From: Phenylobacterium sp.
Lineage (GTDB): Bacteria; Pseudomonadota; Alphaproteobacteria; Caulobacterales; Caulobacteraceae
NCBI RefSeq assembly: GCF_016793225.1
Contig: NZ_JAEUMN010000119.1
Span: forward strand, 1-33,420
DNA length: 33,420 nt
Direction: 5' to 3'
Positions 7,181 to 11,388 of the stretch are shown one piece after another; position 1 is the first letter of the stretch; each line of letters opens with the position of its first letter. Both the position numbers and the translations under genes were made by a program. The notes below the pieces were generated by a model. That model made no database searches. It saw nothing but the letters and a program-made list of their open reading frames with translations, and was not told where the DNA came from.

Positions 7181-7326
7181 GGGGCCCTCCGCCGCGGTCC
7201 GAGGGTCGGCGAACGTGGTTAACCGATCGGAAAGAGCCGAGCCCGCGGGCAACCGTCGCCAGGCTGTCGGGGCGGATGCGGTCCAGGGTGACGCTCGAGG
7301 CCGTAGCGCGCCCTGGCGCGGGGCGC

Positions 7327-7353
7327 GTGACTTCAGGGGGCGGCTCCGCTATA
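7327..7353 (+). promoter_or_regulatory. Candidate promoter of the his leader-hisSZG operon
   Basis: GCTATA at 7348-7353 resembles the alphaproteobacterial housekeeping -10 (GCTANAWC type). GTGACT at 7327-7332 is a partial -35 with a 15-base spacer. The expected transcription start near 7360 would place the leader-peptide ATG (7365) at or within a few bases of the 5' end, so the leader mRNA may be leaderless or nearly so. No experimental start is known. Confidence 0.4.
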
Positions 7354-7364
7354 GGGCGCCCGTC

Positions 7365-7442
7365 ATGACGCGGATCGCGCATCATCACGGCCATCACCAC
7401 CATCCGACCCGGGCGGGTTCGGAGCGGGTGCGCGCGGCCTGA
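7365..7442 (+). CDS. hisL: Histidine operon leader peptide
   Basis: A 25-residue open frame, too short for routine gene calling, beginning MTRIAHHHGHHHHP and ending in TGA at 7440-7442. Seven of the 25 codons are histidine (7380-7388 and 7392-7403, interrupted by one Gly), whereas His is rare elsewhere. Its job would be to sense charged tRNA-His: ribosomes stall on the His run when histidine or HisS activity is low. The stop codon lies just past the first arm of an antiterminator hairpin and 12 bases before a terminator-like hairpin, which is the classical attenuator geometry. It precedes hisS, hisZ and hisG, the gene set expected to respond to histidyl-tRNA. Confidence 0.85.
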   Translation: MTRIAHHHGHHHHPTRAGSERVRAA

Positions 7443-7459
7443 CGCCGACCCCTTCCGAA
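7418..7459 (+). promoter_or_regulatory. his attenuator: antiterminator hairpin
   Basis: TTCGGA (7418-7423) can pair with TCCGAA (7454-7459), and GGGT (7426-7429) with ACCC (7448-7451), across a 2-by-2 internal loop. The 3' arm of this hairpin includes the first bases of the left arm of the downstream hairpin (7455-7486), so the two structures exclude each other. A ribosome stalled on the His codons ending at 7403 would leave the first arm free; a ribosome reaching the stop at 7442 would cover it. Confidence 0.65.
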
Positions 7460-7492
7460 GCCCCGCCGAACGCGGACGGGGCTCGGCTCTTC
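7455..7492 (+). terminator. his attenuator: terminator hairpin
   Basis: CCG(A)AGCCCCG (7455-7465, one bulged A) pairs with CGGGGCTCGG (7477-7486), and the loop holds a further CCG/CGG pairing around AACG. The stem is very stable but is followed by CTCTTCC rather than a proper T run, so termination may be weak or assisted. It lies 47 bases before the hisS ATG. Confidence 0.6.
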
Positions 7493-7532
7493 CAGCTTCG
7501 TCCGTCGCCTCAGACCCCTGAAGAGACGACCG

Positions 7533-9056
7533 ATGAACGACCTGTCCCCAAGCAGTTCCTTGAGTGAGACCGTCCCAGAGGCTAAGCGGCCCGCCATGAG
7601 CGAGCGCCCGCAAGCCCGTACGCCCCGCGGATTCATCGATCGGCGCGGCCGCGACGTCGTCGCCGAGCGCGGGATCCTGAAGGCCGTGAGCCAGGTCTAC
7701 GAGGCCTGGGGCTTCGAGCCGCTGGAGACCGGCGCGTTCGAGTATGCCGACGCGCTGGGCAAGTTCCTGCCCGACGCCGACCGTCCGAACGAGGGCGTCT
7801 TCGCGCTGCAGGACGACGACGAGCAGTGGATGGCGCTGCGCTACGACCTGACCGCGCCGCTGGCGCGCTTCGCGGCGCAGAACTGGGAGACCCTGCCCAA
7901 GCCGTTCCGCCGCTACGCCTTCGGGCCGGTGTGGCGCAACGAGAAGCCGGGGCCGGGGCGCTTTCGCGAGTTCGTGCAGTGCGACGCCGACACGGTGGGC
8001 TCGGCGCGCCCGGAAGCCGACGCCGAGATCATCGCCATGGTGGCCGAAGGGCTGGAGGCCGCGGGCCTGCCGGCCGGCTCGGCGGTCATCAAGATCAACA
8101 ACCGCAAGCTCCTGAACGGCCTGATGGCCGCGGCGGGCGTGGCGGACGAGGGCCAGAAGCTCGCAGTGCTGCGTGCGGTGGACAAGCTGGACCGCCTCGG
8201 CCCCGACGGCGTGCGCCTGCTGCTGGGGGAGGGCCGGATGGACGAGTCCGGCGCCTTCACCAAGGGGGCGGGTCTCAGTGCATCGGCGGCCGAGCGCGTG
8301 CTGGCGTTCACCGCCGCCGGCGTGGGCGGCCGCGCCGAGACGCTGGCGAAGCTGGCCGACGTGGTGGGCGGCTCAGCCGAGGGCGATGAGGGTCTCGCGG
8401 AACTGGCGGCGATCGATGCGGCCCTGAAGGGCCTGGGCGTGGGACCCGACCGCGCGATGGTGGACCCCTCGGTCGTCCGCGGCCTCGAGTACTACACCGG
8501 GCCGGTCTTCGAGGCCGAGCTGCTGCTCTCCACGCTCGACGACAAGGGCCAGGCCATGCGCTTCGGCTCCATCGGCGGGGGCGGGCGCTACGACGACCTG
8601 GTCGCCCGCTTCACCGGCGAGCGCACGCCCGCCACGGGCTTCTCGTTCGGCGTCTCGCGCCTGGCTGCGGCGCTCCGGGCGGCCGGTCGCGATCTGGCGC
8701 AGGCCGCGCGGGGGCCGGTGGTGGTGATCGCCTTCTCGCAGGACCGGATGGCCGACTACTTCGCCGTCGCCCGCGAGATCCGCGCAGCGGGCATACCGGC
8801 CGAGGTGTACCTGGGCGCCTCGGGCATGAAGGCGCAGATGAAGTACGCCGACCGTCGCCTGTCGCCGGCGGCGATCATCGTTGGCGACGACGAACTGGCC
8901 GCGGGGACCGTCACCGTGAAGGACCTCGACCTCGGCCGGGAACTGGCCGCCAAGGTGACGGACAACGCCGAATGGCGCGGTCAGCGGCCCGGCCAGCAGA
9001 CGATCCCGCGGGCCGAGCTGGTCCCGGCGCTGCGGCGCATCCTGGACGCCGGCTGA
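7533..9056 (+). CDS. hisS: Histidyl-tRNA synthetase
   Basis: A 507-residue class II aminoacyl-tRNA synthetase that charges tRNA-His with histidine in the cytoplasm. Motif 2 is RRYAFGPVWRNEKPGPGRFREFVQCDAD (about residues 126-153). The histidine-specific loop is VVRGLEYYTGP (residues 314-324), and GGGGRYDDLVARF plus a C-terminal anticodon-binding domain (from about residue 400) complete it. It belongs to the longer alphaproteobacterial HisS type. The ATG at 7533 has GAAGAGACG just upstream; an internal ATG at 7596 is possible but has no comparable site. It is the first gene of hisS-hisZ-hisG, joined to hisZ by a TGATG overlap, and lies behind the histidine attenuator. Confidence 0.96.
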   Translation: MNDLSPSSSLSETVPEAKRPAMSERPQARTPRGFIDRRGRDVVAERGILKAVSQVYEAWGFEPLETGAFEYADALGKFLPDADRPNEGVFALQDDDEQWMALRYDLTAPLARFAAQNWETLPKPFRRYAFGPVWRNEKPGPGRFREFVQCDADTVGSARPEADAEIIAMVAEGLEAAGLPAGSAVIKINNRKLLNGLMAAAGVADEGQKLAVLRAVDKLDRLGPDGVRLLLGEGRMDESGAFTKGAGLSASAAERVLAFTAAGVGGRAETLAKLADVVGGSAEGDEGLAELAAIDAALKGLGVGPDRAMVDPSVVRGLEYYTGPVFEAELLLSTLDDKGQAMRFGSIGGGGRYDDLVARFTGERTPATGFSFGVSRLAAALRAAGRDLAQAARGPVVVIAFSQDRMADYFAVAREIRAAGIPAEVYLGASGMKAQMKYADRRLSPAAIIVGDDELAAGTVTVKDLDLGRELAAKVTDNAEWRGQRPGQQTIPRAELVPALRRILDAG

Positions 9057-10186
9057 TGCGGATCGAGCCCGCCGTTCCCGCGCAGGTGCTGGCCGCCGTG
9101 CGCGCGCCGCTGGAGAGTTCCCGCGCCGAGCGCGCCGACGCGCCCCTGCTTCAGCCGCTCAACCTGCTGCTCGACCTCGCCGGCGAGGCGATGCGCGCGC
9201 GGCTGTTCGTGGTCCAGTCCGAGGGCGGGACCGAGAGCTGCCTTCGGCCGGACTTCACGGTCGCCATCGCGCGCCAGCACCTGGAGCGCGGCCGCGCCGC
9301 CGGCGCCTACTGGTACGAGGGCGCGGCCTTCCGGGCCTCGGCCGGCGCCGACCGCCCCGAGGAGTTCGTGCAGATCGGGCTCGAGATGTTCTCGCCCGGC
9401 GGCGGGGGCGTGGAAGCCGCCGACGCCGAGATCGCCGGGCTGGCCTGGCGGGCGGCGGAGGCGGGCGGGCGCAAGGACCTGTCGCTCTGGTTGGGGGACG
9501 TGGCGCTGTTCGCCGCCTTCGTCGAAAGCCTGGACCTGCCCGACGGCCTGGCGGCGCGGCTGAAGCGCGTGGCCGGTCGGCCGCGCCTGCTCTGGAACGA
9601 ACTCAGCCGCGTCGGCGAGACCAGCGGAGACGGCGGCGGAACGCTGGCGGGCCTGCTGGCGGGCCTGCCCGAGGCCAAGGCCGCCGCGCTGCTGGAGGAG
9701 GTCTGGGCGCTGGCCGGCGTGGAGCCGGTGGGCGGACGCGGGCCGGCCGAGATCGCCGCCCGCCTGGTCCGCAAGGCCGAGGCCGCCAGGGCCCCGGCGC
9801 TCACGGCCGGGCAGGCCGACGCCATCCGCGCCTTCATGGCCATCGACGACGAGCCGAGCTACGCATTCGCCCAGGTGCGGCGCCTGGCGGGCGGCAACGA
9901 CGCCGCGCTGAAGGCGGCGCTCGCCGGATGGGAGAGCCGGCTCCTGGAGCTGTCGCGCGCCGCGCCGGCCGACCGGACGCGGTTCGCGCCCGCCCTCGGC
10001 CATGCCTTCGACTACTACGACGGACTGACCTTCGAGGTTCGGTCGGAGGCGCTCGGGGTCGAACGTCCCGTCGCCGTGGGCGGCCGCTACGACGGCCTGC
10101 TGGCGCGGCTCGGGGACGGGGCCGACACGCGCGCGGTGGGCTGCATGGTTCGGCCGTGGCGAGCCTGGACGGGGGGCGAAGCATGA
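9056..10186 (+). CDS. hisZ: ATP phosphoribosyltransferase regulatory subunit HisZ
   Basis: A 376-residue HisS paralogue without aminoacylation function, which in organisms with short-form HisG forms a hetero-oligomer with it and provides histidine feedback control of the first step of histidine synthesis. Class II-like core signatures remain: SCLRPDFTVAIARQHL, YWYEGAAFRAS (a degenerate motif 2), FVQIGLEMF, GHAFDYYDGLTFEV (the counterpart of the histidine loop) and VGGRYDGLLARLG. There is no anticodon-binding domain, as expected. The ATG shares one base with the hisS stop (TGATG), and the gene ends in an ATGA overlap with hisG, so the three genes are translationally coupled. Confidence 0.93.
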   Translation: MRIEPAVPAQVLAAVRAPLESSRAERADAPLLQPLNLLLDLAGEAMRARLFVVQSEGGTESCLRPDFTVAIARQHLERGRAAGAYWYEGAAFRASAGADRPEEFVQIGLEMFSPGGGGVEAADAEIAGLAWRAAEAGGRKDLSLWLGDVALFAAFVESLDLPDGLAARLKRVAGRPRLLWNELSRVGETSGDGGGTLAGLLAGLPEAKAAALLEEVWALAGVEPVGGRGPAEIAARLVRKAEAARAPALTAGQADAIRAFMAIDDEPSYAFAQVRRLAGGNDAALKAALAGWESRLLELSRAAPADRTRFAPALGHAFDYYDGLTFEVRSEALGVERPVAVGGRYDGLLARLGDGADTRAVGCMVRPWRAWTGGEA

Positions 10187-11133
10187 GCGGGCTCATCATC
10201 GCCGTGCCCTCGAAAGGCCGGCTGAAGGAGCAGGTCGAGGGCTGGCTCGCCGACAGCGGGCTGAAGCTGGACGTCTCGGGCGGCGCCCGAGGCTATGTCG
10301 CCAGCCTGCGCGGCGTCGCCGACGCGCAGGTGCGGCTGCTCTCCGCCGCGGACATCGCCGACGCCCTGGACGCGGGCGAGGTCCACCTGGGCGTCACCGG
10401 CGAGGACCTGCTCCGCGAGCGGGGCGAGGACCTCGACGCGCGCGTCCTGCTGCTGCGCCCGCTGGGCTTCGGCCGCGCCGATCTGGTGACCGCGGTGCCC
10501 AAGAGCTGGCTCGACGTCGACACCATGTCCGACCTCGAGGAGGTGGCGCACGAACTGCTGGCGCGGACGGGCCGGCGCATGCGCGTGGCGACCAAGTACC
10601 TGGCGCAGACCCGGGCCTTCTTCGCCCGCCACGGCGTCGCCGACTACCGGATCGTGGAGTCGGGCGGCGCCACCGAGGGCGCGCCGGCGACCGGCGCAGC
10701 CGAGATCGTCGTCGACATCACCACCACGGGCGCGACGCTCCAGGCCAACGGGCTGAAGGTGCTGGCCGACGGCGTCATGCTGAAGAGCCAGGCGCAGCTC
10801 GCGGCGAGCCTGCGCGCGACCTGGGACGCGACGGCTCTCGCCGCGGCCGAGCGCCTGCTGCGGATTGTCGAGGCGCGCGCCGCGGCGCTCCGGAGCGCGA
10901 CGCTGGCGTGGCCGGCGCGGTCGGACGCGGCTGAGGCCGCGGTGATCGAATCGCTGACCGCCGCGGGCGCCTCCCGCCGACCGAGCGGCCTCCTCGTCGA
11001 TTCGGCCCAGATCGCGGACGCCTCCCTGGCGCTCGCCGCCGCCGGCCTTGGACCGGTCACCGTTTCCCGCCCGGATTTCGTCTTTGACGTAAACTCGCCG
11101 GCTCTGGAGCTGCTGCGCTCACGCTTGTTTTGA
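10183..11133 (+). CDS. hisG: ATP phosphoribosyltransferase HisG with C-terminal extension
   Basis: A 316-residue enzyme condensing ATP with PRPP in the first step of histidine synthesis. The catalytic bilobal domain spans about residues 1-225: the start reads LIIAVPSKGRLKEQ, and the family signature SGGATEGAPATGAAEIVVDI runs into the PRPP loop TTTGATL. Short HisG proteins that work with HisZ usually end around 210-230 residues. Here about 85 more follow, Ala-rich then LLVDSAQIADASLALAAAGLGPVTVSRPDFVFD. This does not obviously match the ACT-like regulatory domain of long HisG. The start ATG overlaps the hisZ stop (ATGA). Confidence 0.94.
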   Translation: MSGLIIAVPSKGRLKEQVEGWLADSGLKLDVSGGARGYVASLRGVADAQVRLLSAADIADALDAGEVHLGVTGEDLLRERGEDLDARVLLLRPLGFGRADLVTAVPKSWLDVDTMSDLEEVAHELLARTGRRMRVATKYLAQTRAFFARHGVADYRIVESGGATEGAPATGAAEIVVDITTTGATLQANGLKVLADGVMLKSQAQLAASLRATWDATALAAAERLLRIVEARAAALRSATLAWPARSDAAEAAVIESLTAAGASRRPSGLLVDSAQIADASLALAAAGLGPVTVSRPDFVFDVNSPALELLRSRLF

Positions 11134-11165: not shown

Positions 11166-11375
11166 GTGATGACGCATTCTTGAGGCCCAGGTGCGCGGAA
11201 AGCGCCTGACGCCCGTTGACTCGGGTAGAAAATTCCCGTCTTGTCACATTGCGAGAGACATGAAGGCGCAAGTCCTGAGGTCTCCGGCGTTTCGGGGAGG
11301 AAACGCCCGCTCATTCAGAGCGACTGCTCAAGGCGGCCCGCAGCGATTATCCCCCGCTGCGGGCCGATTCTTTTT
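11166..11375 (+). ncRNA. Candidate structured small RNA downstream of hisG
   Basis: The 312 bases between hisG and the next gene hold no convincing open frame but several local hairpins. These are CAGG-TG-CGC/GCG-CCTG (11188-11208), CGGG/CCCG (11222-11238), a perfect 8-bp GGCGTTTC/GAAACGCC stem with a GGGGAG loop (11286-11307), and a strong terminator (11334-11375). A plausible promoter lies at 11130-11159. The GGGGAG loop is complementary to the CCCCC in the terminator loop, so a loop-loop contact is possible. I cannot match it to a known family (not tmRNA, RNase P, SRP or a recognisable riboswitch). It could instead be only a long 3' untranslated region of the his operon. Confidence 0.5.
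11334..11375 (+). terminator. Strong intrinsic terminator (his operon / candidate sRNA)
   Basis: A perfect 11-bp stem, CGGCCCGCAGC (11334-11344) with GCTGCGGGCCG (11356-11366), encloses an 11-base loop ending in CCCCC and is followed by ATTCTTTTT. The T run is on the plus strand, so it ends transcripts coming from the hisG side. A second T run (11387-11392) follows shortly after. Confidence 0.9.
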
Positions 11376-11388
11376 CCGCTCCCGCATT

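Follow-up and report, generated by a model that had tools for sequence, protein, structure and literature searches.

The output of the His_leader RNA (Rfam RF00514) of the enterobacterial his operon is an intrinsic terminator with a T run. Which of its alternative hairpins forms is decided by the position of the ribosome on a leader peptide ORF with His codons, as is commonly held and as stated in excerpts of PMC9413887. The same excerpts mention in general terms that in some attenuators a structure sequestering the ribosome-binding site (RBS) stands in the terminator's place, and that the repressor HisR is present in some Caulobacterales. His leader peptides also occur in bacilli upstream of a hisS paralogue and of hisZ; according to the parts of PMC2965389 drawn upon here they are candidate transcription attenuators in Firmicutes, the leaders of Firmicutes and of proteobacteria show no similarity, and the name Caulobacter is absent from the main text. 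In the alphaproteobacterium Sinorhizobium meliloti, the leader ORF trpL (rnTrpL) is leaderless and begins with the AUG of the transcript; here the amino acid is Trp and transcription attenuation releases an sRNA (PMC10117765, in part). Leaderless translation is also described as common in the Caulobacter group (PMC4117421, in part).

The window, i.e. the whole stretch of 33,420 nucleotides of Phenylobacterium DNA that was analyzed, contains a his attenuator that is real and conserved, while the switch itself is predicted by folding. As in RF00514, a leader peptide with His codons is combined with alternative hairpins, the choice of which is predicted to depend on the position of the ribosome. 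In contrast to RF00514, a T-run terminator is lacking (at most three T in 61 of 62 leaders), the target is hisS-hisZ-hisG and the predicted output is the start of the target gene. With the leaders of bacilli the element shares the His-codon leader before a hisS-family gene, but a translational read-out is proposed here; with S. meliloti trpL it is likened by its leader ORF, and with RBS-sequestering attenuators it would share an output of the leader peptide at the level of translation. Among the systems described in the excerpts of PMC9413887 there is none with five segments in a chain on a leaderless leader ahead of hisS, and no his leader of Caulobacterales was found in the literature searched, a search with most subscription papers outside its scope. 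The kind of control, amino-acid leader attenuation, is thus a known one, and what appears to be new is a translational read-out at hisS on a five-segment chain. The initial annotation had already set the element apart from the Rfam His_leader type and, indeed, RF00514 is absent among the matches to 7300-7560 at E up to 10. No T-box was matched there or, at gathering thresholds, in the whole window; identity with a T-box or another known RNA family was rejected, there being no such Rfam match.

Profile matches place hisS, hisZ and hisG consecutively on the plus strand downstream of the leader (Table 1). The initial annotation had read a 25-codon leader with seven His codons ahead of hisS-hisZ-hisG; this arrangement is confirmed, with the leader at 7365-7442, and the leader is conserved in relatives. 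The second in-frame ATG of hisS at 7596 coincides with the beginning of the conserved core, and the true start of hisZ probably lies further in than that of the listed ORF. Directly 3' of hisG, at 11253-11376, the window also holds an Rfam match to CrfA (RF01527, 52.9 bits), the carbon-starvation sRNA of Caulobacter. The elements of the putative promoter P1 were judged against what we take to be the consensus. Its -10 element GCTATAGG is situated 17 nt upstream of the leader ATG, a distance more frequent than any other in the 63 leaders: -10 elements of the [GC]CTA type lie 14-18 nt upstream of the leader ATG in 56 and 24 nt upstream in one, the -10 of the remaining six falling outside the regular expression used for the count. 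Because of this spacing, the transcript from P1 is predicted to start at the leader ATG or 1-3 nt upstream of it, and the near-leaderless start suspected earlier is supported to this extent, as a predicted start. Of 30 Phenylobacterium loci, 22 have a P2-like pair of promoter elements ahead of the inner hisS ATG, compared with 0.06 expected in shuffles. This suggests a second, leaderless hisS transcript that would provide basal, unregulated HisS.

Table 1. Features of the hisS leader region of the Phenylobacterium window
Feature	Position	Strand	Remarks
Predicted promoter P1	7327-7355	+	-35-like GTGAC (7327-7331), -10 GCTATAGG (7348-7355)
Rfam CC3513 (RF01528) match	7345-7407	-	38.0 bits, gathering threshold 40; opposite to leader
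Leader ORF	7365-7442	+	25 codons, MTRIAHHHGHHHHPTRAGSERVRAA*; starts 168 nt upstream of hisS ATG 7533
His codons HHHGHHHH	7380-7403	+	Predicted sensing site; seven His codons in the sequence
Segment 1 (GGCGGGTTCGGAG)	7412-7424	+	Pairs with segment 2; part of the antiterminator of the initial annotation
Segment 2	7453-7468	+	Pairs with 1 or 3 (folds, alignment)
Segment 3	7473-7486	+	Pairs with 2 ('terminator' hairpin) or 4 (folds, alignment)
Segment 4	7492-7507	+	Pairs with 3 or 5 (folds, covarying pair C7477:G7500)
Segment 5	7518-7538	+	Shine-Dalgarno (SD) sequence GAAGAG (7520-7525) and hisS start codon (7533-7535); closed in 4:5
hisS (histidine--tRNA ligase)	7533-9056	+	TIGR00442; start 7533 is the proposed target of leader control
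Predicted promoter P2	7560-7595	+	TTGAGT (7560-7565), GCTAAG (7581-7586); predicted leaderless hisS mRNA from 7596
hisZ (ATP phosphoribosyltransferase regulatory subunit)	8972-10186	+	NF008949, match from residue 29; ORF as listed
hisG (ATP phosphoribosyltransferase)	9928-11133	+	TIGR00070, match from residue 90; ORF as listed

Of 34 Phenylobacterium genomes, 33 have the leader ahead of hisS (30 loci plus L056, L057 and L059), and comparison of this region across these relatives showed the His run to be conserved. The sample represents 34 of 36 genomes, outside of which are G003, in which hisS extends across contigs, and G020, which gave no hisS match. The one locus devoid of a leader, L031, has an N-free sequence in which only P2 is present upstream of hisS, retained as a P2-like promoter recognizable by eye. 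All of the 30 Caulobacter loci likewise feature the leader with hisS downstream, in a sample that was chosen by RF01528 and is biased because this model describes the same locus. Each of the 63 leaders contains 5-8 His codons, and since both CAC (256) and CAT (143) are used, the third base of the codon is variable. A degenerate pattern of the His run, searched in a contig collection with one genome per species, yielded 32 exact matches. In 31 of these a hisS match starts 180-383 nt downstream, while the sequence of the remaining locus (L163) ends 187 nt past the His run. Among the 32 loci, hisZ is present in 22 and hisG in 17, the remaining ones mostly ending early; hisG occurs in all 17 loci that extend at least 3.5 kb downstream. 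The leader also precedes a hisS-like gene in four further genera (L135, L136, L137 and L139). It is rich in codons for the amino acid of its target genes, as is characteristic of amino-acid attenuators.

Outside the family, a leader of this form was not found in 24 genomes from other families of the same order, in a search with covariance model R1 or at 29 class-wide loci. At E <=0.001, R1 had matches in 26 of the 200 genomes searched from this order, and all of the matching rows stem from the family of the window. In family f2 of the same order, a different leader of 12 codons, MNTxLHHHHHHx or similar, resides upstream of hisS in six of six genomes (L036-L040 and L044); its His run lies directly before the last codon and the stop, and its hairpins differ. 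In 18 genomes from families f3 to f5 of this order no trustworthy his leader was detected upstream of hisS. Class-wide, hisS was found in 140 of 142 genomes, and about 450 nt upstream of it were read for 29 loci outside the genus. Short ORFs with at least three His in eight codons occur at two of these, one of which is plausible: in the distant alphaproteobacterium represented by L195, a possible leader MKNIVLNHTHHHTHAKHGLGN precedes the hisS match by 209 nt.

Downstream of the His codons, five segments make up a chain of alternatives, 1:2, 2:3, 3:4 and 4:5, in which neighbouring pairings exclude each other by sequence. When the RNA of the window is folded from 7407, corresponding to a ribosome at the fourth His codon, 1:2 forms by pairing of 7412-7424 with 7453-7467 and an extension of 7426-7436 with 7443-7451, together with 3:4 (7474-7486 with 7492-7503). 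Folding from 7455, with the ribosome at the stop codon, yields 2:3 (7455-7468:7473-7486) and a 4:5 pairing composed of 7497-7502:7532-7537 and 7504-7507:7527-7530, which encloses the start codon 7533-7535. The structures at 30 and 37 degrees are alike except for one lone pair. The antiterminator and terminator hairpins of the initial annotation both reappear in these folds, the former within a longer helix (7412-7417:7462-7467, 7418-7424:7453-7459 and 7426-7429:7448-7451) and the latter, 7455-7486, as 2:3, and folds and sequence agree that the two are mutually exclusive. That scheme comprised two correct pairings, but overlooked 3:4 and 4:5 and took the wrong pairing as output. The motif GCGGGNTCGG of segment 1 is read in differing frames among the leaders (..LAGS.. 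as opposed to ..RGIGR..), pointing at a constraint on the RNA. The letters of the stem closing the SD sequence, read by eye, also differ among leaders (CCUU/AAGG, CUC/GAG, AUCCCUG/CAGGGAU and GUCCUC/GAGGAC). In L080 from Caulobacter an insertion in the hairpin rewrites segments 2-4; structure counts therefore refer to the 63 leaders less this one.

RNAalifold, left unaided, chose 1:2 together with 3:4 for the 44 of the 63 leaders that were aligned. In this combination 97.9% of the cells are paired, compared with 43-57% when the helices are slid, and in the helix of columns 2-6 with 61-65 (1:2) the pairing holds for 219 of 220 cells. The core of 2:3 and 4:5 reaches 94.0%, compared with 26-44% when slid. 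Against dinucleotide shuffles, the mean z is -4.1 for 3:4 and -2.2 for 4:5, each being below -1 in 57 of 62 leaders; 3:4 is not significant in L013, L020, L022, L026 and L056, nor is 4:5 in L006, L013, L021, L058 and L083. The SD sequence is paired to 0.79 as opposed to 0.60 with shuffled loops, and 42 of 53 distinct sequences lie above expectation. Most paired columns are invariant. One pair of 3:4, C7477:G7500 (columns 76 and 104), covaries: among the 44 leaders of the alignment, 25 have UA and 19 have CG; L013 had seemed to be an exception on account of a misplaced pattern match and has G in the alignment, while in L024, outside the 44-leader alignment, C-A breaks the pair. When mapped onto a phylogeny of 58 hisS proteins, the switch at this position requires three changes, one of them being forced by well-supported branches. 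Covariation as the main proof was dropped, independent changes being too few on this tree, and both-sided changes and pair types are unexceptional in shuffles for 1:2 plus 3:4 (273/500, 495/500) as well as for 2:3 plus 4:5 (97/500, 77/500). The conservation of both arms, which the initial annotation had proposed to examine, holds as conserved pairing, while covariation is limited to one pair with few changes.

What could be the output of such a chain? No T run in the 10 nt following the 2:3 arm is longer than three in 61 of 62 leaders; the remaining leader has a run of four. The missing T run that had been noted for the single sequence is therefore general, and the termination of transcription assigned to 7455-7486 finds no support: segment 3 can also pair with 4, and 4 with the hisS start. 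The suspicion of a variant mechanism was justified. An intrinsic terminator, be it at 2:3 or downstream of segment 4, was rejected for lack of a T run.

Predicted accessibilities point to the hisS start instead. Removal of segment 2 raises the mean accessibility of SD and AUG from 0.27 to 0.49, with an increase in 61 of 62 leaders and a decrease in L024. If segment 2 is forbidden to pair, the mean rises from 0.28 to 0.40 (by more than 0.02 in 45 of 62) and that of the AUG alone from 0.24 to 0.51, while control blocks of 11 nt each, one in the 3-4 loop and one upstream, result in 0.31 (17 of 62 rise) and 0.28 (8 of 62), respectively. In folds that assume all RNA under and behind the ribosome to be unavailable, the 62 leaders average 0.26 with no ribosome, 0.28 with the ribosome at the first His codon, 0.42 at the fourth, 0.40 at the last and 0.27 at the stop; the default state free of ribosomes is closed. 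Stalling at the fourth His codon exceeds the stop-codon state in 57 and stalling at the last His codon in 47 of 62 leaders. The corresponding values for the window are 0.32, 0.32, 0.49, 0.29 and 0.29, i.e. there is no opening upon stalling at the last His codon and little at the first; L011 and L014 hardly change across ribosome states. As opening is strongest at the fourth His codon, the middle of the His run would be the effective sensor in the model, and the opening of hisS would be partial because a small hairpin at the SD sequence is still predicted in the open state. One of the alternatives closing the SD sequence and start of the target gene, the mark of a translational attenuator, is thus found by folding. 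In 45 of 62 leaders the ATG of segment 5 shares the reading frame of hisS. In the other 17 it opens an ORF of 6-27 codons that ends between -8 and +10 nt relative to the hisS ATG, a pattern as in translational coupling; in either frame, translation begun at this ATG can reach hisS. The constant spacing of +9 in Phenylobacterium may stem from the -10 element of P2 rather than from coupling.

Taken together, we consider it reasonably probable that the element attenuates hisS-hisZ-hisG at the level of translation, mediated by the ribosome and dependent on histidine, and that its leader ORF is almost leaderless; the response of the element to histidine supply is inferred. When charged tRNA-His is scarce, the ribosome would stall on the His codons, with the greatest effect in their second block, and leave segment 1 free. 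Formation of 1:2 would then allow segment 3 to take up segment 4, such that the hisS start in segment 5 is predicted to be open. With plentiful histidine, a ribosome at the stop codon would cover the 3' part of the leader including the inner half of 1:2 (7426-7451); 2:3 should form and 4 would pair with 5, closing the SD sequence and AUG of hisS. The untranslated mRNA would perhaps be lost to Rho or decay, by which control could extend to hisZ and hisG.

Rho could also play the leading part, with translation of the leader or stalling on it setting access of Rho to the C-rich stretch past the leader stop and the hairpins tuning this effect. The absent T run, the C-rich spacer downstream of the stop and the polarity on hisZ-hisG that would result all agree with such Rho-dependent attenuation, but it has no need for the pairing of SD and AUG, and we grant it a modest chance; the two mechanisms may also act together. 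Slightly less probable still appears classical transcription attenuation, in which 2:3 (7455-7486) would terminate despite its lack of a T run and 1:2 would be the antiterminator. The two hairpins exclude each other and occur in the correct order, and similar hairpins in leaders of acetyltransferase genes (see below) do end in T runs. As six such leaders carry T5-T6 behind the same hairpin, a terminator form exists, and the hisS leaders are without it. The shortness of the T runs in nearly all hisS leaders speaks against this explanation, which also fails to account for a conserved segment 4 that pairs with SD and AUG.

At the leader (7300-7560, E up to 10), CC3513 (RF01528) is the sole strong Rfam match; the next, P37, was taken as chance (21.3 bits compared with 50). 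RF01528 matches 76 of 249 genomes of the family, 47 of them above the cut-off, and among 14 control genomes that of Caulobacter vibrioides alone. In the 30 best genomes the RF01528 match is on the strand opposite to that of R1, and the reverse complement of the CC3513 consensus, as read from the alignment, consists of a promoter, an ATG and then codons for MARKPHHHGHHHHP. CC3513, which reportedly goes back to work of Landt from 2008, and the hisS leader occupy the same locus, but the former is annotated as a non-coding RNA on the opposite strand. The CC3513 family is the hisS leader locus annotated on the opposite strand, and because the complement of its consensus reads promoter plus leader, its conservation is due to the leader, at least in good part. 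Two earlier predicted non-coding RNAs of Caulobacter are stated to be translated (PMC4117421, in part). It is very improbable that an antisense sRNA is the conserved element and the His codons merely its complement: the Rfam strand speaks for it, but the alternation of CAC and CAT, the promoter-ATG spacing and pairing chain on the leader strand that extend past the sRNA match, and hisS downstream in 30 of 30 Caulobacter loci all oppose it, and a leader RNA and an antisense RNA could both exist. We give hardly any credence to a leader that mainly boosts hisS translation by reinitiation or ribosome hand-over independently of histidine sensing since, even though leader genes have been proposed generally to raise downstream translation (PMC4833913, in part) and short ORFs before hisS show the coupling pattern, this would not explain why each of the 63 leaders contains 5-8 His codons.

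The proposed translational attenuator of hisS has sister elements on a similar scaffold. At E up to 0.01, R1 matched 139 of 249 genomes of the family, including loci at asd and acetyltransferase genes, and 20 of its weaker or second matches were inspected. Eight are located before asd (L125-L129 and L132-L134) in Caulobacter and two other genera. These leaders are rich in Thr and contain Lys codons (Thr/Ile in L125), as exemplified by MSFAATKTITRKTAHLGGAAGVRAI from Caulobacter and MTKTITSKTTCLGGAVSGVRKV from genus g13. Most of them fold into a hisS-like chain, whereas in L133 no 2:3 forms when folding begins at segment 2, and by eye a T run is absent except for CCCTTTTCT in L125. In their codons the asd leaders of Caulobacter and genus g13 resemble SEP5 of S. 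meliloti, which is located in the 5'-UTR of a gene called 'aspartate dehydrogenase' and contains six Thr as well as three Lys codons (PMC10117765, in part). Six further matches, all in Phenylobacterium (L121-L124, L130 and L131), precede PRK10140-like acetyltransferase genes, an assignment made at 110-129 bits, under the model cut-off of 236. Their leaders comprise 25 codons with no single amino-acid run. In L123, L124, L130 and L131, 7-8 of the 10 nt after the hairpin are T, and TTTTTT follows it by eye in L121 and L122, which fall outside the regular expression; T5-T6 is thus found in all six. The sisters at asd and acetyltransferase genes score 33-46 bits with R1 and the hisS leaders up to 106, the weakest one inspected (L135) reaching 47, so that a common origin of the scaffold is likely rather than certain. 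Five sister elements scanned (L120, L121, L125, L126 and L132) gave no match in Rfam. At L120 (G000:C82:31095-31227; R1 39 bits), in the genome of the window itself, a GNAT gene (Pfam Acetyltransf_3) follows a leader MVRKAANPSGCNEATLVGLRDGRVRAI that has a similar hairpin. In L138, a leader MTRIAHNHTRLWTCLGGPGGARAS like a degenerated his leader is followed by a gene that looks by eye like a GNAT acetyltransferase and is truncated at the end of the contig.

It is tempting, if tentative and held with somewhat less than even confidence, to see in these elements a modular attenuator cassette of the Caulobacteraceae, with one pairing chain on which sensing codons and read-out are exchanged: His codons with closure of SD and AUG for hisS-hisZ-hisG, Thr (and Lys) codons with a similar read-out for asd and a T-run terminator for acetyltransferases, the Rfam 'sRNA' family being an antisense image. 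If this is true, attenuators acting on transcription and on translation would have turned into one another on a shared scaffold within a single family. The analysis yields, with R1, a covariance model that detects the sister elements at asd and acetyltransferase genes. Should the proposed mechanism hold, CC3513, so far a Caulobacter sRNA family, would now be tied to a leader, a terminator hairpin remade into a translational switch would be available as a testable case, and the histidine supply of Caulobacter and its relatives would be controlled by a leader peptide via translation of the synthetase gene.
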